Below, piece after piece: positions 3,602-40,837 of a DNA stretch of 64,000 nt. The notes under the pieces were generated by a model that saw only the letters and a program-made list of their open reading frames with translations, was not told the origin of the DNA and ran no database searches. This DNA comes from Tetracentron sinense. Lineage: Eukaryota; Streptophyta; Magnoliopsida; Trochodendrales; Trochodendraceae. Every line of letters begins with the position of its first letter. Position 1 is the first letter of the stretch. The DNA lies in contig CM026554.1 of the NCBI GenBank assembly GCA_015143295.1, forward strand, positions 26,195,215 through 26,259,214, written 5' to 3'. A program made the position numbers and the translations under genes.

Positions 3602-3817
3602 TGTCGCACCCCAAAATACCCCCTACGAGTTAAGGGGTACATTAGGCATAACTATACTTAACCCGTCAAACCATACTGTAATGAACAAGGTGAAACATAC
3701 CATAATGGAACATGAATCAGAGAGTGGAAGCTCATAATAGTATGGAAGCGTGAACCAACTTTTTCTTTTTCTATAAAACTCCAGTATTCCAAGTTTATAC
3801 AAAACATATCAAGTACA

Positions 3818-3833
3818 GGTGGACATGCCCACC
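3818..3833 (-). other. Conserved LTR hairpin downstream of the small ORF (copy A)
   Basis: The stem is GGTGG/CCACC with loop GCATGT in LTR sense, about 50 bases after the small ORF's stop. The same hairpin occurs in all five Del-like LTRs. In the 10734-12987 copy one stem pair changes on both sides. Confidence 0.6.
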
Positions 3834-3881
3834 ATCAAAATACACAACATAAAAGTCTCTCTCTCTCTATCTCCAGAACCC

Positions 3882-4022
3882 CTACTTACAGTAGTCTAGA
3901 TATGGCCACACATCTAGATCTCGATCCTCTTGAGGCTGAAGTGGAATAGGCGTCGCCTCCTCGACGTATTCTTCCTCAACCCAAGGCTCAAGGTCGAAGA
4001 AACCCACCGGACATGCCGACAT
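3882..4022 (-). CDS. LTR-encoded small conserved ORF, 46 codons (copy A)
   Basis: This ORF begins ATGTCGGCA on the minus strand and is intact to its stop. I do not recognise the product. It is acidic, with no signal peptide or membrane segment visible. Two blocks are conserved with the other Del-like LTRs: WVEEEYVEE (residues 14-22) and DLDVWPYLDYC (residues 35-45). Against the copy at 29948-30088 these 20 codons differ at 11 nucleotides, all silent, which is the pattern expected of selection on a protein. The ATG is chosen because ATGTCGGCA is shared by four of the five copies and lies just after a conserved hairpin. It would sit in the transcribed leader, upstream of gag. Confidence 0.6.
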   Translation of the reverse strand: MSACPVGFFDLEPWVEEEYVEEATPIPLQPQEDRDLDVWPYLDYCK

Positions 4023-4032
4023 GAAATGTACG

Positions 4033-4053
4033 GCTGAGTATGAAATACTCAGC
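4033..4053 (-). other. Conserved hairpin just upstream of the small ORF (copy A)
   Basis: GCTGAGTAT-GAA-ATACTCAGC is a perfect 9-bp inverted repeat with a 3-base loop. It lies 10 bases upstream of the ATG of the small ORF. The same hairpin is present at this place in all five Del-like LTRs, sometimes with a T-G wobble. Confidence 0.65.
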
Positions 4054-4429
4054 GAGTACAAGCTACTAACTAACAATAGTAATAACGAGCTACGATAGCA
4101 ATAATTAAATACAATTCATAGCCACAATATTAAAGCAATACCACATTAAGAATTAAATCAATGCAACAATCATGACATGCATGGAATAATGCAAAAACTC
4201 TGATAAAACTCAAATTTGAAATTCATGGCTTTTTCTTGGAAAATAGCTTTTCGTGGTTTTCAAAACTTGCTTGTCATGTTAAAACTTGTTCTTGTCCCGT
4301 AGGAATCACATGTGTCTTGTCTTGTTCTTGTTAGAATCACATGTCATGCTTGTCATGTCATGTCATGTCATGTCTTGACTTGCCTTGCAATGTTTACTTG
4401 TGAGCCACATGTTATTGCCCCTTATAGTG

Positions 4430-4740
4430 ACTTGTGAGTCGGATACGTAAGTATCCTTCGGCGAAACATGAATAGAAAACAACTTGTGAGCCGGATACGT
4501 AAGTATCCTTCAGCGAAATAGAAAAGGGGTACACCAACATCCTTGACCAGCCCTTTGTTCGGCTTTATCAACTTGTTTTCTTGTGAGCCAGGTATGACAT
4601 ATTTGATGATATGCCCTACCCTTGACTGGCCCGATGTCCGGCTTTATCGTGCTTGTTTAATTGTGAGCCAGGTATGACATCCAGGGGATATGCCCTACCC
4701 TTAACCAACCCGATGTCTGGCTTTATCATTCGTTCTGTAA
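4430..4740 (-). repeat. Short tandem repeats in LTR copy A
   Basis: Two types of unit are visible. One is about 60 bp, containing GGATACGTAAGTATCCTTC (twice, about 4440-4520). The other is about 85-90 bp, containing GAGCCAGGTATGACAT and CCCGATGTCCGGCTTTATC (twice, about 4580-4735). Each unit carries a TTGTGAGCC-like motif. Related repeats in opposite orientation occur at 33290-33620. Confidence 0.75.
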
Positions 4741-5600
4741 ATCAAGGGTCTTGCTCTTATTTGATTTCTCACATATATATACTTTAGAAAACCTCGGTTA
4801 ATGCATGTATGTGTGTGTGTGGGTAGCAATTTGTAGTAATCATGATGATATGCACAACTCAAGGGATGATGTGTAGCATTCAAATCCTTAATATGATCAT
4901 GAGTGGGGAAATTAGACATTCATATAGAGCATTGGATCAATTTATCATTTTTGGGAAAACTACATAAATCCTACTTTCATATCCTTTATTAAATCCATTT
5001 AATTCTCATTTAGACATTTTATCGAACACTTGGCGTGCAACATTACATAGTCTTATTTCTCTTTTTTATTATACATTTCATCAAACACTACATGTGTGTT
5101 CATTATTTGTACAATTTCTTTCCACCATTTTCCATCACCCAACATCCATCACACAACATGGCATCCAATCGCCTCAACCATTCACATCCCACACATCCAT
5201 ATTCATTCCATTTATCTTGTTTATTTTAAGGGTAATTAGTATAACTGAAAGGAAAGGGAAGGTATAAGGTTAAAATCATCACTCTCAAAAGAAATCCTAC
5301 GTTATTACTAAGCTAGTTAGGAGGGTGTACTAACTTTGATGATTAACTCTTAACTTTAGAGAAAACCCTTTATTTGAAACCCAAGCTTGATGGAGAATGC
5401 AACCTTGAGGAGGTGGGTCTTGCTTGAGTGAGGAAGATCCAACCTTGATTGAGCCTCCCTTGAAATATAACCCAAACCCTTCTTGCAAAAATCCCCAAAT
5501 CTCTAGTCTCTTCTCAATCCCTCTTAAGTTTAGGAACCCCCAAATGAGAATCCCCTTATAAGACAAAGGTTTAAAACCCTTAATTTTGGACTCAACTACC

Positions 5601-5864
5601 GTGTGCGATCGATCGCACACCAACTGCGATCGATTGCAGATCCAGCACGATCGATCACACCTGAGGGCGATCTATCGCACATGAACCCGAATACTTTTGG
5701 TCTGATTTCTCCCTGTATGCGATCGATCGCACACCCTTACGATCAATCGCAGATCCCTGTGATCTGTCGCACATGAAGGCCATCTATCTCACTTGGTCCA
5801 GAATGTTTTTGACCAATTCGACCTGCATACGATCGATCGCACCATACCTGTGATCAATCGCACT
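5601..5864 (-). promoter_or_regulatory. Phased CGATCGATCG palindrome array in LTR copy A
   Basis: About ten sites match GCGATCGATCGC or one- to three-base variants. Their centres lie near 5610, 5631, 5652, 5674, 5724, 5744, 5766, 5786, 5835 and 5857, so neighbours are 20-22 bp apart within groups and groups are about 50 bp apart. The site at 5601-5620 is a perfect 20-bp palindrome. The array ends about 40 bp before the TATA-like CTTATAAG (5555-5562). An upstream promoter element bound by a dimeric protein is plausible but not shown. Confidence 0.7.
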
Positions 5865-6073
5865 CCCCATTTTTTGGTTTCTTCCACCTGTAGACCCCTA
5901 GGGCTGTTTCTAGCCTCATTTCCATCATTCATAGGGCACGAAACTCCCTTTTACACGCTGCACCTGGGTTGTTAACATCCATTTTATTAGAAAATACCAA
6001 ATCCAAATACATAGAAAGACATTTGGCCATAAAAAACTATTCATTAGCCACAAAAAAGTCCCGGTGTGCTACA

Positions 6074-6342
6074 GTTTCTACCGCCCTTCCTGATTTAGCC
6101 TAATATGGGAATGACGGTAAAAACTCTACTGCCATTACCTGTTTTATGCTAAATCAGACCCAACCCTTATGCAATTAGTTTGCAACACTGTTCATCTTTC
6201 CAAAACTGGAAATAGGTGATAAATTTTCTACAGCCATTCCTGAAATTTTTAAATTTTTGACAGTGGGCCCCACACCAACGAGTTTCTAGGATATATGGGC
6301 CCCTGTTTTGACCCTTGTGAGAGTGAAATCCCGTGCTTACAG
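6074..6342 (+). repeat. 3' end of the Tat 5' LTR
   Basis: This resumes Tat LTR sequence after the inserted minus-strand element. It holds inverted repeats of the GCGGTA...TACCGC type (about 6090-6150) and ends GTGAAATCCCGTGCTTACA, almost the same as the 3' LTR end at 30576 and the solo LTR end at 40517. The primer site follows after four bases. Confidence 0.75.
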
Positions 6343-10728: not shown

Positions 10729-10957
10729 CATACTGTAGAGCCCCGAACTTTTGACATTTATGCATGACACTTTCGTAGCTATTTTTCCTTTAAAGTAGTG
10801 CAATTAATAAATAAGGAAGAAATTGGAAATTCTGAAACTTCAGAAATGTTCTTTTTCGAAGTACGAACCCAACGCAAGTTGAATCATCGAAATCCGACGA
10901 GCGAGTCAAAAGTTATGGCCGAAACAAGGAGGAAAAATATGGAATTTTGCTGCAAGT

Positions 10958-11145
10958 TACGACCGATCGTACACACCCTACGAACGATCGTAGGTGAGTT
11001 ACGATCGATCGTAGAGGTTATGATCGATCGTAGAATCTCAGGAATTTACAAAAGTTTCGGGTCGATATACGATCGATCGTGGATAATTTACGATGGATCG
11101 TAGTACAACTTACGATCGATCGTAGACAGGTTACGATCGATCGTA
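10958..11145 (+). promoter_or_regulatory. Phased palindrome array in LTR copy B
   Basis: Eight 14-base sites of the form TACGATCGATCGTA start at 10958, 10979, 11000, 11019, 11068, 11089, 11111 and 11132. Three are exact palindromes (11000, 11111, 11132) and the rest carry mostly one change. Spacing is 19-22 bp, with one gap of 49. A TATA box follows 51 bp after the last site. Confidence 0.8.
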
Positions 11146-11195
11146 GATCGCGAATCCAGAAATTTTAATCGGATTTTTAGGGTTTCTTCACTACC

Positions 11196-11201
11196 TATAA
11201 A
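11196..11201 (+). promoter_or_regulatory. TATA box of LTR copy B
   Basis: CCTATAAAGG lies 51 bp downstream of the palindrome array and about 460 bp into the LTR. A TATA-like box sits at about the same place in the other Del-like LTRs, for example TATAAAAA at 32457. Confidence 0.65.
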
Positions 11202-12019
11202 GGTTGCCCGAGCCTTTAGGGCTCTCATCCACACACCTAGAGTATTTTTGAGAGTTAGCGAGAAAGGAGAAGGGGATCCTAACCTAGGGTTTGTTCTTGA
11301 AGGAGAAATCAAGGGTTTGATACCCTAGATCACCCCAAGCTTCGGTCAAGCTCGGGAGGACCACGTTCTTCAAGGTCGGTAGCATCTCACGCACGTTTTT
11401 GCAAAGGTTTTCTTCCCTATTCAGGTCGGTACTCTTTGCTACCCTCCTAGTTATAGCTTCTCTTTTCCTTTATTTCTTCTCGTTTTCCTTCACTTATATA
11501 TGTGTTATGAGATTGGTGGTATGAATGGTGAATGGAGGTGGATGTTAGCGAAAGGATGCCGTGTGGAGGATGTGATGAATGAATGGGAAAGGGCATTGTA
11601 CTAATAATGAACATACAAGTGTGATGTGAGCATAACCCACCTAGAAAAACATGATCTAGGTTTAAGTGAATAATCAACACACCCTATGTTTGATGAAATG
11701 CCAAGGTGAACAAAATGAATGATAAATTAAGGGAACCCATGCTTAAGTACTCTTGAAATTTGTTAGGGTTCATGATAGTGTGATTCTTACATTTCTTAAA
11801 ATGTGTAGATTATTACTCACTTAAATTGTTGTATGTTATACTTTGTGAATTACCCCAAATTGCCATATTTAATTCCAAATGCAAGTATGCACACGATTTC
11901 ACGAGCACGAATGCATGGCATGTTTTATCGGCGTTTTCAAGAACACGGTTTAGAGGTGGGGCATATCGTACGATATGTTTTACCTCGCTTTTGGCAAGGA
12001 CAAGACAATCATGCATTTT

Positions 12020-12260
12020 CATAAGAAGGGTCTCCCTTCCCTCGCAAGTGCATACATAACATAAGAAGGGTCTCCCTTCCCTCGCAAGTGCATCTCACAA
12101 GGACATCTCGCAAGTGAATCTAACAAGTGGAAGGACAAGCATGAGCATTCTAGGAAGAAGGGTCTCCCTTCCCTCACAAGTAGTTTACTCTTCCGAGTAG
12201 GCATGACAAGCATGAGCATTCTAGGAAGAAGGGTCTCCCTTCCCTCACAAGTAGATTACT
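12020..12260 (+). repeat. Short tandem repeats in LTR copy B
   Basis: The unit GAAGGGTCTCCCTTCCCTC with flanking AAGTG/CATGAGCATTC text occurs four times (about 12024, 12064, 12156 and 12226), with unit lengths of about 40-70 bp. GGGTCTCCCTTCCC is itself partly an inverted repeat. It occupies the same LTR position as the unrelated-looking tandem repeats of the other copies. Confidence 0.8.
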
Positions 12261-12535
12261 TTTCAGAACAAGCAAGCATGATACAAGCATGACATGGCAT
12301 GACACGCATGATATGACAAGATAAAACAAACATGACAAGTTTTCAAGCATGGAAATGGTATTTCCAGTCAAGTCAAGTGCACAAGGTCTTCGAGGGTTTT
12401 ATCGGTTTTTTTTTAATGCAAGCATGATTACAAACTGCTTTATTTCCTTGTATGATATGAACTGTTCCTATCTTATATATATATATGTGTGCATTGCTAT
12501 CTCATGCTATGACTATTGGTTAGTATTTAGTACCC

Positions 12536-12556
12536 GCTGAGTATTCCATGCTCAGC
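12536..12556 (+). other. Conserved hairpin upstream of the small ORF (copy B)
   Basis: GCTGAGTAT-TCC-ATGCTCAGC forms a 9-bp stem with one T-G pair and a 3-base loop, 10 bases before the ATG at 12567. Confidence 0.6.
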
Positions 12557-12566
12557 CGTACTTCTT

Positions 12567-12683
12567 ATGTCGGCAGGTTCTGAGGGAGCTGCTGCTCCAT
12601 TTGATATTTGTGCTCCTGGTACATGGGTGGAGGAGGAGTACGTCGAGGTGCCTTTGGAGGAACCTCCCGTAGAGGGTTATTAG
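12567..12683 (+). CDS. LTR-encoded small ORF, 38 codons (copy B, divergent tail)
   Basis: The ORF starts ATGTCGGCAGG like the other copies, is uninterrupted, and includes WVEEEYVE (residues 20-27). Against the 29948 copy this block differs only at silent positions (GTG/GTC, TAC/TAT, GTC/GTA). The C-terminal half does not have the WPYLDYC block; it ends PPVEGY. This copy is therefore a divergent member, or the second half was lost and replaced. The function is unknown. Confidence 0.5.
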   Translation: MSAGSEGAAAPFDICAPGTWVEEEYVEVPLEEPPVEGY

Positions 12684-12750
12684 TGGGTGGTGTTAGATTC
12701 TGAGTGGATTAGCTGTGGGTGAGCATGAGTGATTATATCCATGCATTTTG

Positions 12751-12764
12751 GCGGGCATGTCCGC
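12751..12764 (+). other. Conserved LTR hairpin with compensatory change (copy B)
   Basis: GCGG-GCATGT-CCGC. The other copies have GTGG-GCATGT-CCAC (copy C has a changed loop), so both sides of one base pair differ together. This supports a structure that is kept. Confidence 0.6.
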
Positions 12765-12992
12765 ATTTTCTTTGTTTTGTTTTCTTTTGTCTTAAACTTG
12801 GACCATGTGTATATACTTAGAGGTTTGTTAGACTTCCGCTGTGGTTTATAGTTATGCTTCCGCTGTTACCCTCTATTGTACATGTTCTGTGGGTTTTGTA
12901 GGTTGGTTCGTCAAGCAAGTCCTGTAAGTCATGATTAAGTCGTCCAAGATTCACTCTAACTCCTAGGGTGGGTTTTGGGTCGCGACACATAC

Positions 12993-21174: not shown

Positions 21175-21723
21175 TGTAAGCACCCAATTTTTACACACTA
21201 CTTTTAACCATGTTTTACACTTTTTAACCATGGTTATCCACAACTAAGCCCTAGTCAAACCCTAACCCTAGGTAAACCCCGGTCCAAATCCTGGTCAAAC
21301 TCTAGTCAAGCCTAGGCAAAATCCTAGGACAAACCTTAACCCTAGGTAAACTCTGGTTAGACCCTAGTAACCCCTAGGTAAACCCTAATTCAAACCCTAA
21401 CAACCCTAGGTAAATCCTGAACCTAAACCTTAGGCCTAATCCTAGGTAAGTCCTAAGTCAAACCTTAAGCCTAACCCTAGGTAAACCATGGTTAAACTGT
21501 TGCGCCCCAAAATACCTCCTAGGAGTTAAGGGATACTTTAGGTGTGACTATACGTACCTGCCAAACCATCATGTACAACAAGGTAAATATAATACTAAAA
21601 CAATGATAATCAGAGCGCGGAAGCTAAACATAAATGCGGAAGCGTAACTAACTTTTTTTTTTCTTCTAAGATTTTCAAAATAGTATTCCAAGTTAACATT
21701 TATACAAAACATGTCTAAGTCTA

Positions 21724-21741
21724 AGGTGGACAGGCCCACCT
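21724..21741 (-). other. Conserved LTR hairpin (copy C)
   Basis: The AGGTGG/CCACCT stem of six pairs is intact. The loop differs from the other copies (GCCTGT in LTR sense). Confidence 0.55.
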
Positions 21742-21784
21742 ATCAAAATACCAAAATACATAAGCACCCTCTCGTACTCTCCCC

Positions 21785-21925
21785 TCAACAGTAGTCGAGG
21801 TACGGCCACACGTCAAGGTCTCGGTCCGCCTGAGACTACAGTGGGATAGATGGCTCTCTCTCCTCTATATACTCTTCCTCGACCCAAAGCTCCGGGTCGA
21901 GGGCTCCCTCAATACCTGCCGACAT
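21785..21925 (-). pseudogene. LTR-encoded small ORF, copy C, one internal stop
   Basis: It has the same start (ATGTCGGCAGG), the same length as the 29948 copy, and the conserved blocks WVEEEYIEE and DLDVWPYLDYC. One internal TAG replaces what is a CAG (glutamine) codon elsewhere. The last block differs from copy D by silent changes only (GAC CTT GAC versus GAC TTG GAT). The decay is thus slight and recent relative to the third-position differences. Confidence 0.6.
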
Positions 21926-21933
21926 GAAAGTAC

Positions 21934-21954
21934 GGCTGAGCATGGAATACTCAG
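21934..21954 (-). other. Conserved hairpin upstream of the small ORF (copy C)
   Basis: In LTR sense it is GCTGAGTAT-TCC-ATGCTCAGC, a 9-bp stem with one wobble pair, nine bases before the ATG. Confidence 0.55.
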
Positions 21955-22228
21955 CGAGTACAAGCTACTAGCTAACCATAACAATAATAAACATGCAAAG
22001 AGTAATACAATACCAATCATCAATTCAAGGTAATAGTAAAATCATAGAATTAAACAATATTAAACATGGACCAATATTATCATCTTGATGTACGTGCATG
22101 AATGCAAAAAGACCGATAAAACTCATGCTTGAAAACCCATTTCCATGTCTCGGTATGCCTTGTAAAAATCATGTATGTGTGCATGCATGAATGTCTTGTC
22201 ATCATCTTGTAAACTTGCATCTTGTAAC

Positions 22229-22505
22229 TTGTGAGCCAGAGGCTAGCATCCGAATCGCCCTGGGCTGCCAACCTCCTTGATATATGGTTTTCTTGTGAGC
22301 CAGAGGCTAGTACCCGAATGTCCCTAGGCTACCAACCTCCTTGACAATATGTGATTTTTATTACTTGTTTAGTTTTCTTGTGTGCCAGAGGCTAGTACCC
22401 GAATCCCCCTTGGCTACCAACCTACTTGACAATATGTGTTTTGGGGTTTTCTTGTGAGCCAGAGGCTAGTACCCGAATGTCCCTGGGCTACCAACCTCCT
22501 TGACA
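22229..22505 (-). repeat. Short tandem repeats in LTR copy C
   Basis: Four copies of GTGAGCCAGAGGCTAGTACC ... GGGCTACCAACCTCCTTGA begin near 22229, 22286, 22378 and 22451. Unit length varies from about 57 to 92 bp because of spacers. They match, in opposite orientation, the repeats of copy D. Confidence 0.85.
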
Positions 22506-23503
22506 TGCAATATTTTCTTGTTAGTTATTATATGCATATGCTCTTGAAATCTCGGTTCATGCAATATGCGTGCTCGTGTACGTGTCAATAGTACAATCAT
22601 GAAAATGAGGAAAACAAGAGAGATATGACATCATAATTCATTCAATTCATAGTACATGCATATGACCATTTGAGTAATTAACATGGTATTTAAATCAATT
22701 CACCATTCATAAGAATACATGCATAAGGCCTATTTCCATTTTCTTCATTCAAATCATTATTTCATAGTTTAGACATTTTGTCAAACACATCACATGCAAT
22801 GTTCCTCCATAGTTCATTTTCTTCTTTTTAGTGCATATCTTCTATCCAATAATCAAAGTGATTTCATTATTGGTAAAATGTCCATCCTCCATTTTCCATT
22901 ACACATACCACATATATCACACATCATACATTCGGCATCCCATCGCCTCAATCAATCTCTCATCCACACATCCATATCCTTTTCTTTTTCTGGTTTATAA
23001 TTATTAGATATAATACATTTTTCAAGGAAGGAAACATACTAACATGAATCACATTTCACATAGAAAACCTAGATTATTGCTAGGGGAAGTTAGTAGGGTG
23101 TACTAACCTTGAATCAAGGCTTGATCCTTTGTAGAAACCTTGATTGAAGCTTTAACTTGAAAGAAGAAACCCTTGCTTGAAGAAGGTTTGAGTTGAGGAT
23201 GAAACCCCTCTCAAAAAAGTAAGTGATTTGCTGCCCTAGCTTCGGAGAAACGTGCTCCTCATGAGTTAAACCTTGAATTTGGAGAAGAAGCAAGCTTGTG
23301 ATGATCTAGGGTTTCCAAACCCTTTTGATTCCTTCTCCAAAGCAAACCCTAGGTTGGAAATCCCTTTCTCCTCTCTCTCTTTCTCTCAAAATCTTCTAAG
23401 TATAGTGAATGAAGCCCTAAGGCTCGGGCAAAGCCTTATAAGAAAGGGTTTAACCCCTAAAAGATGAAAAAGCCCTTACTAAAATTTCTGCAAAAATGCG
23501 AAG

Positions 23504-23690
23504 ACCGAGCAATCGGTGGTTATGACCGATTGATCGGTTGCCTACCGAGCGATCGGTGTTATAACCGAGCGACTAGTCAAAAACATGCTCTCTGGAAAAT
23601 TTCCTCATCCAAAATTTTTGACCAGTCGATTGCTACCGATCGATCGGTTTTAGACCGATCAATCACCGAATGGACCGAGCAGGTCAGAAC
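23504..23690 (-). promoter_or_regulatory. Phased palindrome array in LTR copy C
   Basis: Sites related to ACCGATCGATCGGT start at 23504, 23525, 23544, 23564, 23621, 23635, 23654 and 23674. The one at 23635-23648 is an exact 14-bp palindrome. Spacing is mostly 19-21 bp. The array ends about 60 bp from the TATA-like CTTATAAG at 23435-23442. Confidence 0.7.
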
Positions 23691-24329
23691 TGTTTTGGTC
23701 ATATCTTTTGACTCGTTCGTCCGATTTCGACAATTCAACTTGCGGTGGGTTCATCCTTCGAAAAGGAACATTTCTGAGATTTCAGAATTTCTAATTTCTC
23801 CCTTATTTATTAATTAGACTACGAGAAGAGCCAATTAGGCACGAAAGTGCTATTCATTAAATATAGAAAAGTCCGGGGTGCAACATAAACCCTACGCCTA
23901 ACCCTAGGTCCACCCAGGGCCCATTTCAGGCTCAAGAAACCTCAAAACCACGTCCAAACTCCCCCGTGGGCCCAAACACGAGCCCACAAGCCTTTAGCAC
24001 CCAGTGTAGTGGGGCCCACCTGCTCATTTTGAAAATTCAAATTAATTGCGGTAATAACATTACCGCCATTAAAAAAATGGCAAAATGAACAGTGCTTTCG
24101 GCCCAATCGTGTGAGGGTTGGGCCATTCTTGCCAAAAATACTAAATGGCGGTAATGATATTACCGTCATTCCTATTTGGCCTGATCCAGAAATGACTGTA
24201 ATATTATTACCGCCATTTTCAGCTTTCGGCAAACTAGTGCACTGCACCTCTCCTGGCCATCTTAGCTCCCCTCCAGTATATCTCCCACGCCTGGTTTAAT
24301 TCCCAAGCTACCCCTATAGTCTCCCTCTT

Positions 24330-26618: not shown

Positions 26619-28045
26619 CACTGCCCTCTGCCCACACCCTAGGCAAGATCCCAGGAGCTTCAGGGAGCACCCTCAACCTCCCCTCAGCCCTCTGCCACCT
26701 TGCTGCCACCTCCATCATCGTTGGAGCCCAACCGAGTAGGGTAGGACCTCCTCCCTCTGTAAGGCCCCTGGTCCTACTCCAAGAGCCATTTTATTTATTA
26801 TCTTTTTTTCCCTAGTTGTTTAGCTCCCAGGGATAGAGGCCCCCTACCTTACCCTAGGTATGGGGGACCCTCTTGAGGGCTGAGAATTCGGGTACAAGAC
26901 CCCCCACTGCATGGCATCAACTCTACTTCTTAGCTTCTTGCCTGGTCTTTCCAGGCCCACCCTGTAGCCTAACCACGGTTAAAATAGCCTAAACCATTCC
27001 CTGTCCAGAATTGCGGTAGCTATCTACCACCATTTCAGTATTTCTCTTACAGTAGCTTTGGGCCTACCTTAAGCCCATTTTAGACCAGTTCCAAAGCCCA
27101 CCAGAGGACAAGGACATTGGGGGAAGTCCCCTGATCAACCCTGATGGGTCCCAGACCCTTGGATTAACCCTTAACTTCACTTTAGACCCTACAAAAAACC
27201 AGCAACAGGAAACTGTTAATGGCGGTAGACTATCTACCGCCATTCCAAAACAGTGAAGTTTTGGAATTGCGGTAAACAGATTACCGTCATTCCTAATTTC
27301 TATCTTTAGGTTTTTTTGCATAGGGTCCAAACCTGATAGGAGGCCACTCTAGACCCTCCCATATCTTCTAGGCTCACCCTGACCTGCTCAACACCTTTAA
27401 TTGGGGTTAACCTAACCCCGATTAACTTTTAACCGCGGTTAAGCAGCCCTTAACCCCTGGTAAAAATATGGAAAAATATCAAAAAATCTGAAATATTACT
27501 GTGTCCAAAATATTTCTACTTTGGCCTCTTCACCATGGTTAGTAGCCCTAACCATGGTTACTTTACCCATTTAACTCCGGTTAGTAACCCTAACCTCGGT
27601 TAAATCCATTTTTGGCTTACCGGGCCTAAATCTCTCAGCCTACCGGGCCCAATCTCAGTGACCATACCTCCCTTAACTATGGTTAGTAACCCTAACCATG
27701 GTTAGTTTGATCTAACCCGCAACTCTAACCTTAGTTAAACTTTGCCTTAGCCTACCGGGCTTCTCTCTTGGCCTACCAGACTAACCCTAAGCCTATGGGG
27801 CTTAAACCACGTACTTGACCAACCTTGGTCAACCAAACCCTAGTCTATCGGACTAATTCATTAGCCACCCTTGATGCACACACACACCTCCTAGCCTCGG
27901 CACGAGCTCATGTGCCAGAACTACGCTCGATCTGATCTCACCTTGTGAGTACGTAGGCAACCTAACCTGGGTTCGACCCTAGTTAGCTTTTCTTCCTTAG
28001 ATTAGTATTACTTTACACTTAGGCATTTAAACAAACATGGAATTT
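26619..28045 (+). repeat. Body of the Tat 3' LTR
   Basis: No gene is seen. There is a perfect hairpin AATGGCGGTAGA-CTA-TCTACCGCCATT at 27218-27244 and related imperfect ones near 27010 and 27262. From 27410 to 27740 AACCATGGTT, AACCGCGGTT and similar palindromes recur. The rest is CCTACCGGGC-type short repeats ending at the copy D insertion. Confidence 0.75.
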
Positions 28046-28257
28046 TGTAGCACCCCAGACTTTTTCATCCTTAATGAATACCACCTTCATAGCTAATTGG
28101 CCATTTTTATAGTCTAATTAATAAATAAGGGAGAAATCAGAAATTCCGAAACGTCAGAAATGTTCGTTTTCGAAAGACGGATCCAACGCAAGTTGAATCG
28201 TCGAAATCCGACAAGCGAGTCAAAAGATATAGTCAAAACAGTCCAGACATACAGAAG

Positions 28258-28442
28258 ACCGATCGCTCGGTCCAGTCAGCGATCGATCGGTCCATAACCG
28301 ATCGATCGGTAGCTATCGCACGGTCATAAATTTTGTATGGGGAAATTTTCCAGAGAGTGAGTTTTTGACCGGTCGATCGGTCATAAACACCGATCGCTCG
28401 GTAGGCAACCGATCGATCGGTCATGAACACCGATCGCTCGGT
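28258..28442 (+). promoter_or_regulatory. Phased palindrome array in LTR copy D
   Basis: Sites of the form ACCGATCGATCGGT or ACCGATCGCTCGGT start at 28258, 28278, 28297, 28368, 28389, 28408 and 28429, with a degenerate one near 28316. Spacing is 19-21 bp, apart from one gap of about 50. Those at 28297 and 28408 are exact 14-bp palindromes. Confidence 0.8.
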
Positions 28443-29402
28443 CTTCGCGTTTTTGCAGAAATTTCAGTAAGGGCGTTTTCGTCTTTTGGGTGTTAAACCC
28501 TTACCCATAAGGGTTTGCTCGACCCTTTGAGACCTCACTTACAACATTGAGAGATTTGGGAGATAAGAGAGAAGAGAAAAGGGTTTCCTAAACCTAGGTT
28601 GCTTTTGGAGAAGAAATCAAAGGGGTGAAGACCCTAGATCGTCCCCAAGCACGTTTTCTTCACGATTTCAACTCGAGCTCGTGTGGAGGTGCATTCTCCA
28701 AGCTAGGGCAGCACTCACTCACGTTTTGAAAGAGGTTTCTTTCCCCAACTCAAGTCCCCTTCAAGCAAAGGCTTCCTCCTTCCAAATAGAGCTTCTATTT
28801 CAAGGTTTCTTCAAGATCAAACCTTGATCTAAGGTTAGTACACCCTACTAACTTACCCTAGCAATAAATCTAGGTTTTCCTTATGAAATGTGATTTATGC
28901 TATTATGTTTGCCTCTCATATGAAATGTATCATCTCCAATGAACCTAAATAAGATAAGAAAAAGGTATGGATGTGTGTGGGTGTTGATGTGGCGATTGGA
29001 TGCCGAGGTGTATGTTGGGTGATGTGTGTGATGGAAATGGTGGATGGGTACTTTACCAATAATGAACATACCTTGATTTTTGGATGGAAAGTAGGCACTA
29101 AAAAGAAGAAGATGAACCATTAAGGAACCTTGCATGCTATGTGTTTGACAAAATGCCTAAACTAGGAATAAATGACATAAATGAAGAAAATGAAAGTAGA
29201 CCTTATGCATGTGTTCTTATGAAGGATGAACTATTCAAATGTCACGTAGATTACTCAAATTCCTATATGGTTATACTGTGGATTGAATTGCTATACACTA
29301 CTCTTCATGTCACATTGTCATCATGATATTACAAGTGTTACACACACCACACATGCATGCATGAAACCGGGTTTTTCCAAGATTGTATTTGTATATGAAA
29401 TG

Positions 29403-29672
29403 AATCAAGAACATGACAAGGAGGTTGGTAGCCCAAGGAAGGGTGCTAGCCTCTGGCTCACAAGTGAAATGCAAGAGAGAACATGACAAGGAGGTTGGTA
29501 GCCCAAGGAAGGGTGCTAGCCTCTGGCTCACAAGAGAAACCGAACAAGAACACGACAAGGAGGTTGGTAGCCCAAGGAAGGGTGCTAGCCTCTGGCTCAC
29601 AAGAGAAACGGAACAAGAACACGACAAGGAGGTTGGTAGCCCAAGGAAGGGTGCTAGCCTCTAGCTCACAAG
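29403..29672 (+). repeat. Four 70-bp tandem repeats in LTR copy D
   Basis: Four nearly identical units of 70-71 bp each contain GACAAGGAGGTTGGTAGCCC, AGGAAGGGTGCTAGCCTCTG and GCTCACAAG. They begin near 29408, 29478, 29549 and 29619. Their near identity points to recent amplification. The repeats are open in several frames on both strands, which produces spurious ORFs. Confidence 0.92.
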
Positions 29673-29917
29673 TATACAAGTCAAGAACAAATCAAGACAT
29701 GAAATACAAGACAAGAAACGATACACATACATGATTTGACCGAGACACGAAAAAGGTTTCCGAGACATGAGTTTTACCGAGGTTTTTGCATTCATATACG
29801 CATGTCAAGATATGGCTATGTATCTTATGCTTTCACTATTGCTTTAAATTAATATCTTGTATTGCTCACTGTTGTTATGCTTTCGCTATTGTTATGGTTA
29901 GCTAGTAGTTTGTACTC

Positions 29918-29938
29918 GCTGAGTATTCCATGCTCAAC
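29918..29938 (+). other. Conserved hairpin upstream of the small ORF (copy D)
   Basis: GCTGAGTAT-TCC-ATGCTCAAC. The stem has one wobble and one mismatch near its base compared with the perfect stems of copies A and E. It lies nine bases before the ATG. Confidence 0.5.
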
Positions 29939-29947
29939 CGTACTTTT

Positions 29948-30088
29948 ATGTCGGCAGGTACTGTGGATGTCCTCGACCCCGAGCCTTGGGTCGAGGAGGA
30001 GTATGTAGAGGAGAGGGAGCCACCTATCCCATGGCAGTTTCAGGAGGATGGGGACTTGGATGTGTGGCCGTACCTCGACTACTGTTGA
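29948..30088 (+). CDS. LTR-encoded small conserved ORF, 46 codons (copy D, intact)
   Basis: It starts ATGTCGGCAGG and ends in TGA with no interruption. The product is small and acidic: about a dozen D/E residues, blocks WVEEEYVEE (residues 14-22) and DLDVWPYLDYC (residues 36-46), and a proline/glutamine-rich middle. There is no known domain, signal or membrane segment, and I do not recognise it. Comparison with copy A shows 11 silent and no replacement differences in the two blocks. An in-frame upstream ATG (29930) would add six residues, but only the ATGTCGGCA start is shared. It would lie in the RNA leader of the element, upstream of gag. Confidence 0.65.
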   Translation: MSAGTVDVLDPEPWVEEEYVEEREPPIPWQFQEDGDLDVWPYLDYC

Positions 30089-30125
30089 GAGGAGAGGGTT
30101 AGAGAGTTCCTTTTTGTATTTTGAT

Positions 30126-30143
30126 AGGTGGGCATGTCCACCT
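30126..30143 (+). other. Conserved LTR hairpin (copy D)
   Basis: AGGTGG-GCATGT-CCACCT has six pairs and a six-base loop containing the self-complementary CATG. It lies 37 bases after the small ORF's stop. Confidence 0.6.
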
Positions 30144-30576
30144 TTACTTTGATTGTATTTAGTATATGTTAACTTGGAATACTATATGGAGTAATAGAAG
30201 AAAAGAAAAAGTTGGCTTATGATTCCGCACTTATGTTTAGTTTCCGCGCTCTGATTATCATTGTATTATATTATGTTTAGCCTCTTGCATTACAGGATGG
30301 TTTGACAGGTACACGTAGTCACCTCTAAAGTATCCCTTAACTCCCAGGGGGTATTTTGGGGCGTGACAAATTTAATTTGGCTTGCACCTAGCAAGTAGGG
30401 AATCATTGACAAATAAAAGTCTCAGGGTGCCTAACACCTTCCCCGGACTTAACCAAACCTCTTACGTAGACCTTTATTGCAGACCAAGACCTTATCCACA
30501 TCTCGGGGCTTATCCCTTCTAAATAAATAGGTGGCGACTCTTAACTTTTTTGTGAGTGCGAAATCCCGTGCTCACA

Positions 30577-31982: not shown

Positions 31983-32192
31983 TGTAGAACCCCGAAACTT
32001 GTGTACGTGATTGGTGAATAGTGTTTTCTAGGCCAAAGGGCCTTCCATGTATTTGAACTTGTGATAGATGAGAAAATGGATAGTAGCAAACTATGTGTAG
32101 TATATAAAGGAGGTTAGTACCTTAAGGATGATGGAAACAAGGGTGAAAAACACTCAAAAGGGTCTAAAGGGATCAAAAGGGAGAAAATGGGG

Positions 32193-32412
32193 TTGCGATC
32201 GATCGCAAGTAAGGTGTGATCGATCGCAGTCAGAGGAAATTCTAGGAAAACTTTCGAATGAACTTGCGATCGATCGTAGGTGGTTTGCGATCGATTGCAT
32301 ACAATGGAAAATTGAACAGAAGCTCTTGGGTCCATGTGCAATAGATCACCTCCAGGTCGATCGATTGCACTGGGATCTGCGATCGATCGCAGTTGGTGTG
32401 CGATCAATCGCA
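32193..32412 (+). promoter_or_regulatory. Phased palindrome array in LTR copy E
   Basis: Sites related to TGCGATCGATCGCA start near 32194, 32215, 32265, 32286, 32337, 32356, 32378 and 32399. The first lies in a perfect 16-bp palindrome (32193-32208). Spacing is 20-22 bp with gaps of about 50. A TATA box follows 45 bp after the last site. Confidence 0.78.
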
Positions 32413-33289
32413 CATGGTTGCCGAATTTAAGAATTTAGAGTTTTAATCCATTTGCCTATAAAAAGGAGGCCATTTGGGGGGTTTTGGGTTAACCTAAAAC
32501 TAAAGGAGTTCTTAGAAGAGAAAGGAGAAGATTTGGAGATTTTCAAAATGGGGTTTTGGATTGAAGAAGAAGAGCTCAAATCAAGCTTGGATCATCCCCA
32601 TCAAGCAAGAATCATCCTCCTCAAGGTGGTGTCTTCTTCCTCAAGCTTGAGTTTCTTAATCAAGGGGTTTTCTTCAAGTTAAGAGTTGATCCTCAAAGGT
32701 TAGTACACCCTTCTAGTTGGATTAGTAATAACCTAGGTTTTTCTTTAAGAATGATTGTGAATTGAGCCTTCATGTTCCATTTTCTTGAGATCAACCATGT
32801 TCCCCTAAAATGTAAAGATTAAATTAAATGTTTATGGATGTGTGCAATGTATGCATAGTTGAGGCAAATTTGGATGTCATGAAGAAGGTGGATGATTATT
32901 GTATGATGGAAAAATGGGGAAGGGCATGTTCAAATAATGAATGCACTCAAGGTGTTGAAATGTTTGAGTATGAAAACATGAATAAAATGCCTATAAGAAT
33001 GTTGAATGCTATGTGCTTGATAAAATACATGTACAAGAATTAAACATAAGACTATGAAACATGATTTAGGGATTTTCTCCAATTCGGTAATTATGTTAAT
33101 ATGCTCTATATGTTTCCTTAAATTCTCACATGTCTATAGAAAGATTTGAAATACTAGATGATATTCTTTTAATTATTCATGTCACTATGATTGCCCACCA
33201 ATTAATAAGCACAAACACACACGCATGCATGAACCGAGTTTTTGAATAAGTATATGAAACACAACCAAGAACAAGACAAATGATTTACG

Positions 33290-33620
33290 ACACGAATGAT
33301 AAAGCCAAATTTTGGGTCGGTTGATGATAGGGCATATCCAAGGATATGTCATATCTGGATTCAAGAAAACAAGACAAGCAAGAATGATAAAGCCGAACTT
33401 TGGGTCGGTCAAGGATAGGGCATATCTAAGGATATGTCACATTTGGCTCACAAGAAAACAAGACAAGCATGATAATATCGGACATTGAGCCGGTTAAGGA
33501 TGTTGGTGTGCCTTTTCTATTTTTGCTAAAGGGTATCTACATACCCGGTTCACAAGTTGCTTTCAAGAATTCACTGAAGGGTATTTACATACCCGACTGA
33601 CAAGTCGTTACAAGGGCGCT
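33290..33620 (+). repeat. Short tandem repeats in LTR copy E
   Basis: Two long units of about 85 bp contain TGATAAAGCC, TTTGGGTCGG and GATAGGGCATAT (about 33297 and 33382). Two shorter units follow, with AAGGGTATCTACATACCCG (about 33527 and 33576). The short unit forms an inverted repeat, GGGTAT/ATACCC. They are the counterpart of the repeats of copy A. Confidence 0.75.
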
Positions 33621-33920
33621 AACATCTGGCTCACAAGATAAGCATGACAATGCAAGACAAGACAAGCATAACATGACAAGCAAGACAAGACACGCATGAT
33701 TCTCACGAGACAAGAACAAGACAAGAATGAGTTTTAAACACGACAAGCAAGTTTTGAAAACACGAAAGTATATTTTCAAGAATAAGTTATGAATTATGAG
33801 CATTGGTTTTATACAGAGTTTTCGCATTTAGTTCCCTGCATGTCATGATCATTATATTGTTTAATTTAATAATATGAATTGAATTTTGTTATTGCTATTG
33901 TGAGCTAGTAGCTTGTGCTC

Positions 33921-33941
33921 GCTGAGTATTCCATACTCAGC
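33921..33941 (+). other. Conserved hairpin upstream of the small ORF (copy E)
   Basis: GCTGAGTAT-TCC-ATACTCAGC has a perfect 9-bp stem and lies 10 bases before the ATG. It is intact although the ORF that follows is broken. Confidence 0.6.
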
Positions 33942-33951
33942 TGTACATTTT

Positions 33952-34089
33952 ATGTCAATGGGTCCGGAGGATATTTTCAACCCTAAGCCATGAGTTGAGG
34001 AAGATTATATTGAAGAAGAGGTGCCTATTCCATTGCAGTCTTAAGAGGACAGTGATCTAGATAAGTGGCCCTATCTAGACTATTGTTGA
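33952..34089 (+). pseudogene. LTR-encoded small ORF, copy E, two internal stops
   Basis: The frame is still aligned to the other copies (46 codons including the stop), but the TGG of WVEEEY is now TGA and one CAA has become TAA. The last block reads DLDKWPYLDYC, with one replacement (V to K) and six silent changes relative to copy D. The start context also differs (ATGTCAATG). Confidence 0.6.
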
Positions 34090-34130
34090 GAGGAGAGTCA
34101 ATGAGGTTTCCTTATTTTATATTGTGATGG

Positions 34131-34144
34131 GTGGGCATGTCCAC
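34131..34144 (+). other. Conserved LTR hairpin (copy E)
   Basis: GTGG-GCATGT-CCAC, intact in the oldest copy. Confidence 0.55.
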
Positions 34145-34359
34145 TCTTATAGTTAGTCATGTTTATTTATAAAACTTTGGAATATTGATCATGTATAGGA
34201 AAGAAAAATTGATTTCACGCTTCCGCATTTGTCTCGCTTCCGCTTTTATTTTTTATCCACTATAGTATGCTATGTATATTTTGCAGGGTGGTTTGCTAGG
34301 TTATGACAGTAATGTCTAAAGTCTCACCTAACTCCTAGGGGAGATTTTGGGGCGTTAAA

Positions 34360-38500: not shown

Positions 38501-40837
38501 TTTGGCCTCTATTGTAGTTGCCTTTTAACCATGGTTAGCTCAGGCCCTGGTCAAGTCCAGAGCCATGGTTAGGATCCTCTGACTCTTGGCTAACTCTCAT
38601 AGCCTTCCCATACCTTAACTCTCCCTTAACTGTGGTTAATTTTGGCCCCAAAAGATGAAACTCACCATTTTGAACAACCAAGCAGGGTGTCTTTAGCCCT
38701 CTATGGGACCCACGTGTGGCATCCCCCTGGGCCCACCAAAGGCCCAAGGTCTTCCCTGTAGTCTAGGCCACACACCCATGGTTCAGATCCCCTGGGTTCA
38801 GACCCTAACCCGAGTTAACACCCTGTAAACCTTGGTTAAAAAAATTGATTATTGAAACTCTCCATTTCAAACTTCCAACCATGGTACCTTTGGCCCACTG
38901 TGGGGCCCACACCTGACGTCCTCCCGGGCCCATACCAAGCTCAGGGTCTTCCCTGAAGTTCAAACTTTACCCCTGTAGGTTCAAAACCCCGTGGGGTTAA
39001 CCCTAATCAGGGTTAAAACCCCGCAAACCAGGATAAGTTAGAAACTCGTTATTTCATGTTTACCAACTAGGGTATCTTTGGCCCACTATGGTGCCCACAC
39101 CTGACCTCCCCCTAGGCCCACCAAAGGCCGAGAGTCTTCCCTGTACTTCAAGTTACACATCCATGGTCTCAGTTTCTCTTAGTTTAGTCCCTAATCACAG
39201 TTAAACTCATGCAAACCATGGTTAAAAATGTGATTAAAATTTTAGTTTTTTTAACTTCTGGCCTTTGTACAGGACCCAGGCCAGGTAAGAGGCCAGTCTA
39301 GGCCCTGCTATGCTTCTTAGGCTCAATTTGGACCTGACCAGACCCTTAACCATGGTTAAATTCACATTTGGTTAATATTTAACCATGGTTAAGCACCCTT
39401 AACCCACAAAATTCTGAAAATTTGATCAAAAATTTAGAAATATTCCCAAGATTCCAGAATGATCCTCTGTGATCATTTTCACCCTAGTTAGGACCCTTAA
39501 CCATGGTCAAACCTCACTTGATTTTTTTTAAACCATGGTTAAGCAACCCTTAACCAACAAAAATCTGGAAAAATACTCAGGAAATCACAAAAAATTTGAG
39601 ATATCCAAAAATGGTCTATTTTATCCATTTAACCACAGTTAACAGTCCTAACCATAGTCACCTCCCCCCTTAACCATGGTTAAACAATCTTTAACCATTG
39701 AAAAAAATCTCAAAAAAATCCAAAAAATATAAAAAGACCGAAAATAAGCTTCAAGGGCATTTTTACCATGATTAGCAGTCTTAACAATGGTTAACTCTCA
39801 TTTAACTCCAGTTAACAACCCTAACCTCGGTTAAATCTGGATTTAGCCTACCGGGCCTCATCCCTTAGCCTTTTGGGCTCACCCTTGACCTACTGGGCCA
39901 AACCTCAGCCTACTGGGCTTTACCTTACCATATCAACTGTGGTTAGCAAGCCTAACCATGGTAAGTTTGATCTAACCCCGGTTAGCAACCCTAACCTTGG
40001 TCAAGCTCCTCTCTTGGCCTATCGGGCCCAAAACTTAGTCTACCAGACCATTCCTTGGCTGACCAACCTCAGTCAAACAAAACCTTAATCTACCGAATTA
40101 TGCACATTAGCCACCATTGGTGCACACACACACACCCCCTAGCCTTGATGCGGGCTCATGTGCTAGAATTACGTTCGGTTTGATCTCACCTTAATGTGAG
40201 TACGTAGGCAACCCAACCCGGGTTCGACCCTAATTAGCTTTTCTTTCTTACGGTTAGCATTATTTTAAACACTTTGGTATTTAATTAAAATTGAACTTAA
40301 TTTGGCTTAACCCTAGCAAGTAGGGAACCATTGAAAAGTGGAAGTGTCGGGGTACTTAATCCCTTCCCCAGACTTAATCAAACTTCTTACCCTAATCTCT
40401 AATCGGAGACCAAAGACTTTATCGAAATCCCGGAGACTTATCCCTTCTGAATGAATAAGTGACGACTCTCTAAACCCAATGAGATTTAATTAGGGTTTCC
40501 CAAAATCTGCGCTTACAACTATATCTCAACCATTGAGAACATCTAAGCATTGTGGTAACCATATAAGTGAAGTGCCCAGCTTCACCCATTGCTGTGACTC
40601 TATAAGGTATAAGGAACTGGAAAGCTATATCTACCTGTGTCAATCCATAACCAATCACATAGCTTTCCTACAATATATCCTAGGGACCTTGTTCGATATC
40701 TCATATCATATAGATCATTTCATGATCTTGGTCAATTACCCATAATGAATTCATAATAGATAAAGAAAATGTCTTTATTAATCTAATCAATAAAAATCTT
40801 ACAATCTAAATGACTTTTCAGGGCATAATGTCCAACA
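35600..40837 (-). mobile_element. Long solo LTR of an unidentified retrotransposon, with a nested Tat solo LTR
   Basis: It begins TGAAGGGACTCC and ends GGGCATAATGTCCAACA, so in its own sense it starts TGTTGGACATTATGCCC. The target duplication is ATGTA (35595-35599 and 40838-40842), perfect. Without the nested Tat LTR it is about 2.1 kb, AT-rich, with an 18-G run at 36263-36280 and no coding. It shares end motifs with the LTR at 24426-26618 and is probably the same broad family. Confidence 0.8.
37397..40517 (+). mobile_element. Solo LTR of a Tat-like element
   Basis: It runs from TGTAAGCACCCAATTTTTAC to AAAATCTGCGCTTACA, with a perfect target duplication ACTAT (37392-37396 and 40518-40522). 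At 3121 bp it is longer than the net LTR of the Tat element at 21175-30576 (about 2.48 kb). A TATA box is at about 37970. At least six exact AACCATGGTT palindromes are present (38527, 39214, 39348, 39381, 39531, 39672) along with many variants. No protein is encoded; the ORFs seen here have no domain. Confidence 0.93.

Follow-up and report, generated by a model that had tools for sequence, protein, structure and literature searches.

The 64,000-nucleotide stretch of the Tetracentron sinense genome analysed here (the window) raises the question of whether the long terminal repeats (LTRs) of a plant retrotransposon encode a small protein of their own, and by which route the element would express it. 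The first-pass annotation had described a short open reading frame (ORF) in all five related LTRs of the window (copies A to E), and the coordinates, strands and sequences given there agree with our re-reading (Table 1). The frame indeed occupies the same LTR position and spans 38-46 codons in the five copies, but it is open only in A, B and D; C and E, counted originally as ORFs, are interrupted copies of the frame carrying one and two stops, respectively. The start ATGTCGGC is shared by four of the five copies as claimed (E starts ATGTCAAT), and the comparison of A with D also held: in the blocks WVEEEYVEE and DLDVWPYLDYC there are 11 nucleotide differences, all of them silent according to the codon table. 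The second block is absent from B. The two blocks had been chosen post hoc; consequently, the whole frame was tested instead. The silent changes in the frame include transversions and one two-step leucine change.

Table 1 Position of the LTRs, peptide frames and predicted transcript features in the window.
Feature	Position	Strand	Remarks
5' LTR with copy A	3602..6075	-	primer-binding site TGGTATCAGAGC and gag come next; position of outer end approximate
Solo LTR with copy B	10734..12987	+	target-site duplication CATAC; 3' end from alignments
Solo LTR with copy C	21498..23885	-	target-site duplication GTTTA
Solo LTR with copy D	28046..30368	+	TG...CA; target-site duplication AATTT
3' LTR with copy E	31983..34358	+	polypurine tract before it; 3' end approximate
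Peptide frame, copy A	3882..4022	-	46 codons and stop, open; CATGT in place of the CAGGT of most copies
Peptide frame, copy B	12567..12683	+	38 codons, shorter, open, without the DLDVWPYLDYC tail
Peptide frame, copy C	21785..21925	-	same frame, broken by one TAG
Peptide frame, copy D	29948..30088	+	46 codons and stop, open
Peptide frame, copy E	33952..34089	+	same frame, broken by TGA and TAA
Weak TATA-like box, D LTR (CCCATAAGGG)	28504..28513	+	prediction; after the CGATCGATCG array
Predicted AUG-free leader exon 1, D	28536..28833	+	start placed at TATA+32
Predicted LTR intron, D	28834..29957	+	donor AAG/GTTAGT; best acceptor GGCAG/GT, in frame codons 3-4
Conserved inverted repeat directly before ATG	29912..29943	+	13 possible pairs

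The elements look like Del/Tekay-type chromoviruses, a name based on their gag and Pol-end domains, on the primer-binding site (PBS) and on general features of this class (gag with capsid and zinc knuckle, an SH3-like/Chromo-like Pol end, long TG...CA LTRs, 5-bp target duplications and an initiator-Met-type PBS). The LTRs studied have TG...CA ends, 5-bp target duplications (B, C, D) and a PBS after the LTR (A and other copies), which we take to be of the initiator-Met type. The gag of one D-type element, a little-diverged relative of copy D, contains the Retrotrans_gag (PF03732, 64 bits), Ty3_capsid (PF19259, 42.1 bits) and zf-CCHC (PF00098, 22.1 bits) domains; its Pol end contains SH3_Tf2-1 and a Chromo match (PF00385) of 24 bits, below the cut-off of 25.1. 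Global identity over the whole LTR among A, C, D and E was 76% for the C-D pair and about 55-71% for the other pairs. The solo LTR of copy D interrupts a different repeat (27429-28045 and 30369-30541), of which a second, unbroken copy lies at about 39670-40469. About 40 nt past the frame stop of D there is a short inverted repeat (GGTGGGCATGTCCACC, 30127-30142), which is retained with small changes in A, C, D and E; the B counterpart is GGCGGGCATGTCCGC, with both sides of one pair altered.

The codon models fitted to the five copies gave an omega of 0.21 (LRT 40.8) in the 61-state version, with stops excluded, and of 0.31 (LRT 25.5) in the 64-state version, where stops were counted as residues, a conservative treatment that works against the claim of selection. 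The same third-position pattern in all three frames, which the first-pass annotation had named as the sign of a spurious signal, was not observed: shifting the frame by one or two raised omega to 1.06 and 2.06, the latter with an LRT of 7.8 towards omega above 1, and the constraint is specific to the frame. Extending the analysis to nine lineages (the five window copies plus B2, B3, F and G, from loci L039, L028, L036 and L049) resulted in an omega of 0.28 (LRT 51.4), the four added lineages having been detected when the peptides were run by tblastn against the flanks of loci retrieved for other matches, being likewise picked by frame likeness and having an uncertain alignment in the indel-rich second half. 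When the alignment of the five LTRs was scanned with the codon model in all frames (521 of 546 scan-window positions had enough aligned sequence), no second coding stretch under strong constraint emerged; the best scan window free of overlap with the frame reached an LRT of 7.0 towards omega below 1. A simple test of third-position enrichment, restricted to copies A, C, D and E, was clear for C-E and D-E (0 of 1857 and 0 of 1852 distant windows as strong) and less clear for A-C (6 of 1704), A-D (16 of 1532) and A-E (65 of 1801); the C-D pair did not rise above distant windows (673 of 1936 reach its value).

Long frames together with silent differences left by methylation decay might produce such a pattern by chance, and the copies do have an excess of transitions (kappa about 2 to 8 in the codon models). 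However, kappa is part of the models, yet the in-frame LRTs are 25.5, 40.8 and 51.4, and nine tests on the flanks of the E family described below gave an omega of 0.74-1.57; chance is to us an almost negligible explanation. Selection on the LTR peptide, as suspected from the silent A-D differences, is well supported by the omega values of 0.21, 0.31 and, for nine lineages, 0.28. Between lineages the peptide is under purifying selection, and the frame very probably encodes a selected small protein.

The host genome (1.16 Gb, 1479 contigs) provided further copies. In little-diverged copies the frame is open, the opposite of what the first-pass annotation had considered damaging to its claim: all the D-type loci read (24 of 24, representing 22 separate sites, one of them in the window, all selected by 99-100% identity to the frame) carry it uninterrupted. 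The score-ranked protein matches of the A, B and F types are ordered by likeness to the frame and thus biased to intact copies; among the best 150 of each, a stop was present in none of the B-type (23,991 candidates), in nine of the F-type (8,845 candidates, the other 141 stop-free) and in 44 of the A-type (18,940 candidates). The 40 D matches scored were all 99-100% identical to the frame, and the 40 F matches scored were all 96-100% identical over about 464-501 nt. D-type neighbour pairs located 4.7-9.3 kb apart, taken to represent both LTRs of a single element, were 94.5-99.9% identical over 672-996 aligned nt in eight of eight cases. The intact frame is therefore present in high-copy, little-diverged subfamilies.

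Sampling by the frame lowers omega, and only the window copies and the E set were sampled independently of it. The 92 ACDE-type sequences, which are subject to this frame-likeness bias, gave an omega of 0.37 (internal branches 0.22, terminal branches 0.42). The E family was collected by searching solely with sequence that follows the E frame (best 40 of 1994 candidates, the window copy included): 12 copies had neither an in-frame stop nor a frameshift, 18 had in-frame stops and 10 a frame-breaking length; three of the 12 unbroken copies lack the ATG and two have lost the end stop. Omega was 0.72 (LRT 8.3) in the frame, compared with 0.95 and 1.73 when the frame was shifted. Two of eleven off-frame tests exceeded an LRT of 10 (19.7 and 10.1), each in the direction of omega above 1, and the LRT of 8.3 is thus smaller than two control deviations in the opposite direction. 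The dN/dS over many copies, proposed originally as a check, is 0.72 in this flank-sampled old family, and not low as it is between lineages. An omega of 0.72 in an old family fits decay after insertion; the E family behaves as would be expected of an old one under mostly neutral decay, and alone constitutes weak evidence for selection.

The lineages have in common the peptide core PWVEEEYVEE or a sequence near it (C, LWVEEEYIEE; B, TWVEEEYVEV; B2, PWVEEGYVEE; B3, PWEKEEYIEE; F, PWVEETYIEE; G, PWVEGEYYDP; E, P-stop-VEEDYIEE). The C-terminal D-(one residue)-WPYLDYC is present in A, C, D, E and G, next to the stop codon, and absent from B, B2, B3 and F, which keep the middle block instead. The D peptide is strongly acidic (14 of 46 residues D/E, one K/R, seven W/F/Y), a composition which in our view resembles that of acidic activation or cofactor-binding peptides; acidic composition is by itself no proof of function. 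There were no matches in a Pfam search with peptides A, B and D, no confident or usable fold from AlphaFold2 with three sequences (pLDDT 62.9), no confirmed homologue among the pattern matches (8 from IMG/VR contigs and 7 from GTDB contigs), and no match in a DNA motif scan of IMG/VR. LTRs pick up foreign sequence, and the frame might descend from a host exon taken up by the element and left to drift as a relic; nevertheless, the constraint runs along the element lineages, the frame is open in little-diverged families and Pfam matches amount to zero, making such an origin very improbable. The one F copy read (L036:2833, minus strand) has the same core and no ATG at the shared start, its in-frame ATGs being located farther upstream and separated from this site by a stop that the copy itself carries; most of the best 150 F matches contain an 87-codon open frame. 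Splicing was considered as an explanation for the ATG-less F copies and discarded as unneeded, in view of this 87-codon frame and of the upstream ATGs in L036.

The sequence around the frame allows a leader structure to be predicted. A TATA-like box is found at the same aligned place in the five LTRs, about 0.45-0.55 kb into the LTR (TATAAA in B and E; TATAAG in A and C; CATAAG, a weak version, in D); there was no TATA[AT]A at the box position in the five D-type loci listed. An array of CGATCGATCG-type palindromes lies just upstream of the box (about 28390-28470 in D) and is present in all five LTRs despite their differing sequences. The predicted exon 1, from 32 nt past the box to the donor, contains, summed over the five copies, 2 ATG in 1208 nt versus 6.5 expected, and the predicted intron 267 ATG in 5703 nt versus 181 expected (first-order simulation of the same stretches). 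The putative donor AAG/GTTAGT (slashes mark splice sites) is conserved, with AAA/GTTAGT in A, CAG/GTCGGT in B and AAG/GTYGGT in several other B copies. Among the 68 loci with enough upstream sequence, 52 have the donor pattern within 1.5 kb upstream (D, 9 of 9; A, 20 of 29; B, 23 of 30), and elsewhere it is rare (3 matches off these LTR sites on both strands of the 64-kb window). The predicted LTR intron would be ~1.0-1.3 kb in length. It includes tandem repeats in D (29396-29672, 69-bp units) and C (22228-22507, units spaced 64 and 85 bp), and those of D produce a repetitive 83-codon ORF at 29483-29734. No intron-less LTR copies were found in the 364 kb searched; two matches (L063 and L160) keep the ATG and are consequently no junctions. 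An upstream coding exon supplying the start via splicing found no support: no in-frame Met exists in 51 of the 52 donor-bearing loci (from the last stop of exon 1, or from the start of the piece up to 240 nt, to the junction). Four of the nine D-type loci, including the window copy (L001), have a stop directly before the junction.

Scored with approximate splice matrices, the candidate acceptor GGCAG/GT in codons 3-4 of the frame is the best in D (9.2 bits), joint best in B (7.8) and second in C, and it is lost in the window copies A and E. Using it would remove the ATG of the frame. If the RNA stays unspliced, each window copy has 48-61 AUGs from the predicted intron ahead of the frame. Sequences resembling an acceptor also occur about 70-75 nt short of the LTR end, in D and E but no longer in C, and immediately ahead of the start codon of gag (TTCTCAG/GA). 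The third base is A in 73 of 75 cases at codon 3 and T in 64 of 65 at codon 4, a near-fixation that a CAG/GT acceptor would require, and the best conserved block of the LTR corresponds to the 60 nt just before the ATG, which can form an inverted repeat with 94% of the cells paired. Both observations would fit the view that there is no protein at all and that a signal at the RNA or DNA level (a splice acceptor, a hairpin or part of a promoter) kept a codon-like sequence by chance. Against this, the constraint is specific to one frame (0.31 vs 1.06 and 2.06) and extends to silent transversions and the two-step leucine change; the third bases of codons 8 and 42 are as fixed as those of codons 3 and 4; and the hairpin lies outside the frame. 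The hairpin was also dropped as a covariation-supported structure, its covariation not being above that of shuffles (84 of 500 reach it, using 41 of 97 distinct segments). A purely nucleic acid function for the frame is, in our judgement, improbable.

The first-pass annotation had placed translation on the leader RNA upstream of Gag. This fits the predicted promoter position, but the best predicted acceptor would cut off the ATG. Two arrangements would accommodate an acceptor within the frame: a TAG located a little earlier, within the conserved block, may serve as the acceptor and leave the ATG in place; or the start codon may lie within the 3' splice site of the LTR intron as a splice switch, in which intron retention would keep the start and splicing would remove it. 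We consider this second arrangement rather unlikely. Translation from the leader RNA as such appears somewhat more probable than not.

A peptide translated from the leader might act in cis, as a conserved-peptide upstream ORF (uORF) whose nascent chain adjusts Gag translation from the same RNA by making the ribosome stall or by releasing it. A conserved C-terminal stretch at the stop codon is a feature of plant conserved-peptide uORFs, and the size of the LTR peptide, together with its C-terminal block at the stop in A, C, D, E and G, resembles them. The two groups also share the short peptide, conservation by silent change (omega below 1) and the predicted position upstream of a main frame. 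The predicted leader position is appropriate as well: in all 35 sequences with a PBS the frame begins 397-435 nt ahead of it, and the distance from the PBS to the gag start is about 325 nt in D-type and about 357 nt in B-type copies. Conversely, the frame differs from the plant uORFs in being carried by a retrotransposon LTR, and its C-terminal block is missing in B, B2, B3 and F, where the middle block is kept; since this block is not common to all lineages, a cis-acting arrest peptide becomes less likely. The main ORF is, moreover, about 600 nt downstream in D-type copies with other AUGs between, the stretch from the frame to the LTR end alone containing 40 ATG in 1391 nt over the five copies. 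We regard the cis-acting uORF as a minority possibility, though one to be taken seriously. PMC2075485 and PMC2527020 turned up in the literature for leader uORFs and for the comparison with plant conserved-peptide uORFs.

The explanation we favour is that the frame corresponds to a real microprotein of a Del/Tekay-like chromovirus, of ~38-46 residues, acidic and with conserved aromatic and hydrophobic residues. An LTR promoter about 1.4 kb upstream of the frame would direct transcripts with an LTR intron, and the frame would be situated at the start of the second leader exon, before gag. This explanation has to accommodate the weak TATA box of D (CATAAG) and the F copy read without an ATG at the site, and we consider that it has about the same chance of being right as of being wrong. 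The product could further act in trans for the element, possibly by docking, as a short disordered peptide, onto a host factor; it would then be kept while the element replicates and would decay after insertion. Opinion is evenly divided in our minds as to action in trans, and not on its own ribosome; docking of the activation type specifically, which is suggested by analogy, is speculative and on balance doubtful.

One mark of an LTR-encoded accessory protein, a coding sequence under selection inside the LTR, is found here (omega 0.31). MMTV sag and HIV nef are LTR-located retroviral genes, in U3 and much longer; they resemble the present frame in having coding sequence within the LTR, and differ from it in that the present frame is predicted downstream of the promoter. 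The literature on ORFs in LTRs, judged by titles and the beginning of abstracts, deals mostly with MMTV or its superantigen. In the Caenorhabditis elegans LTR retrotransposon Cer1, according to PMC12786077 and PMC10309623, CERV is made from spliced RNA and is required for the export of unspliced genomic RNA, being thus another extra product encoded by an element. Ogre and EVADE, plant LTR elements with introns, produce subgenomic RNAs by splicing (PMC12786077); here, in contrast, the predicted intron sits within the LTR itself. The main text of a survey of Del LTRs (PMC4029996) does not mention ORFs, open reading frames or peptides, and an LTR-borne peptide would set the present elements apart from its description. 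Among the open-access papers listed on ORFs, introns or small proteins of LTRs, on Del/Tekay LTR ORFs, on splicing in Tekay-type elements and on leader uORFs, none announces such a peptide in its title. The upstream TATA-like box, the AUG-poor leader exon, the conserved 5' splice site and the LTR intron, all of them predictions, would be new as well.

Plant LTRs are usually taken as non-coding and masked in gene prediction, and consequently a selected protein located there would be missed. If expressed, the LTR peptide would constitute an accessory gene for an abundant class of plant retrotransposons, and would offer a handle on how the element controls RNA, translation or host silencing. If the splice switch were true, the retrotransposon would toggle between a trans-acting regulator and Gag in a Tat/Rev- or CERV-like manner, all inside the repeat.
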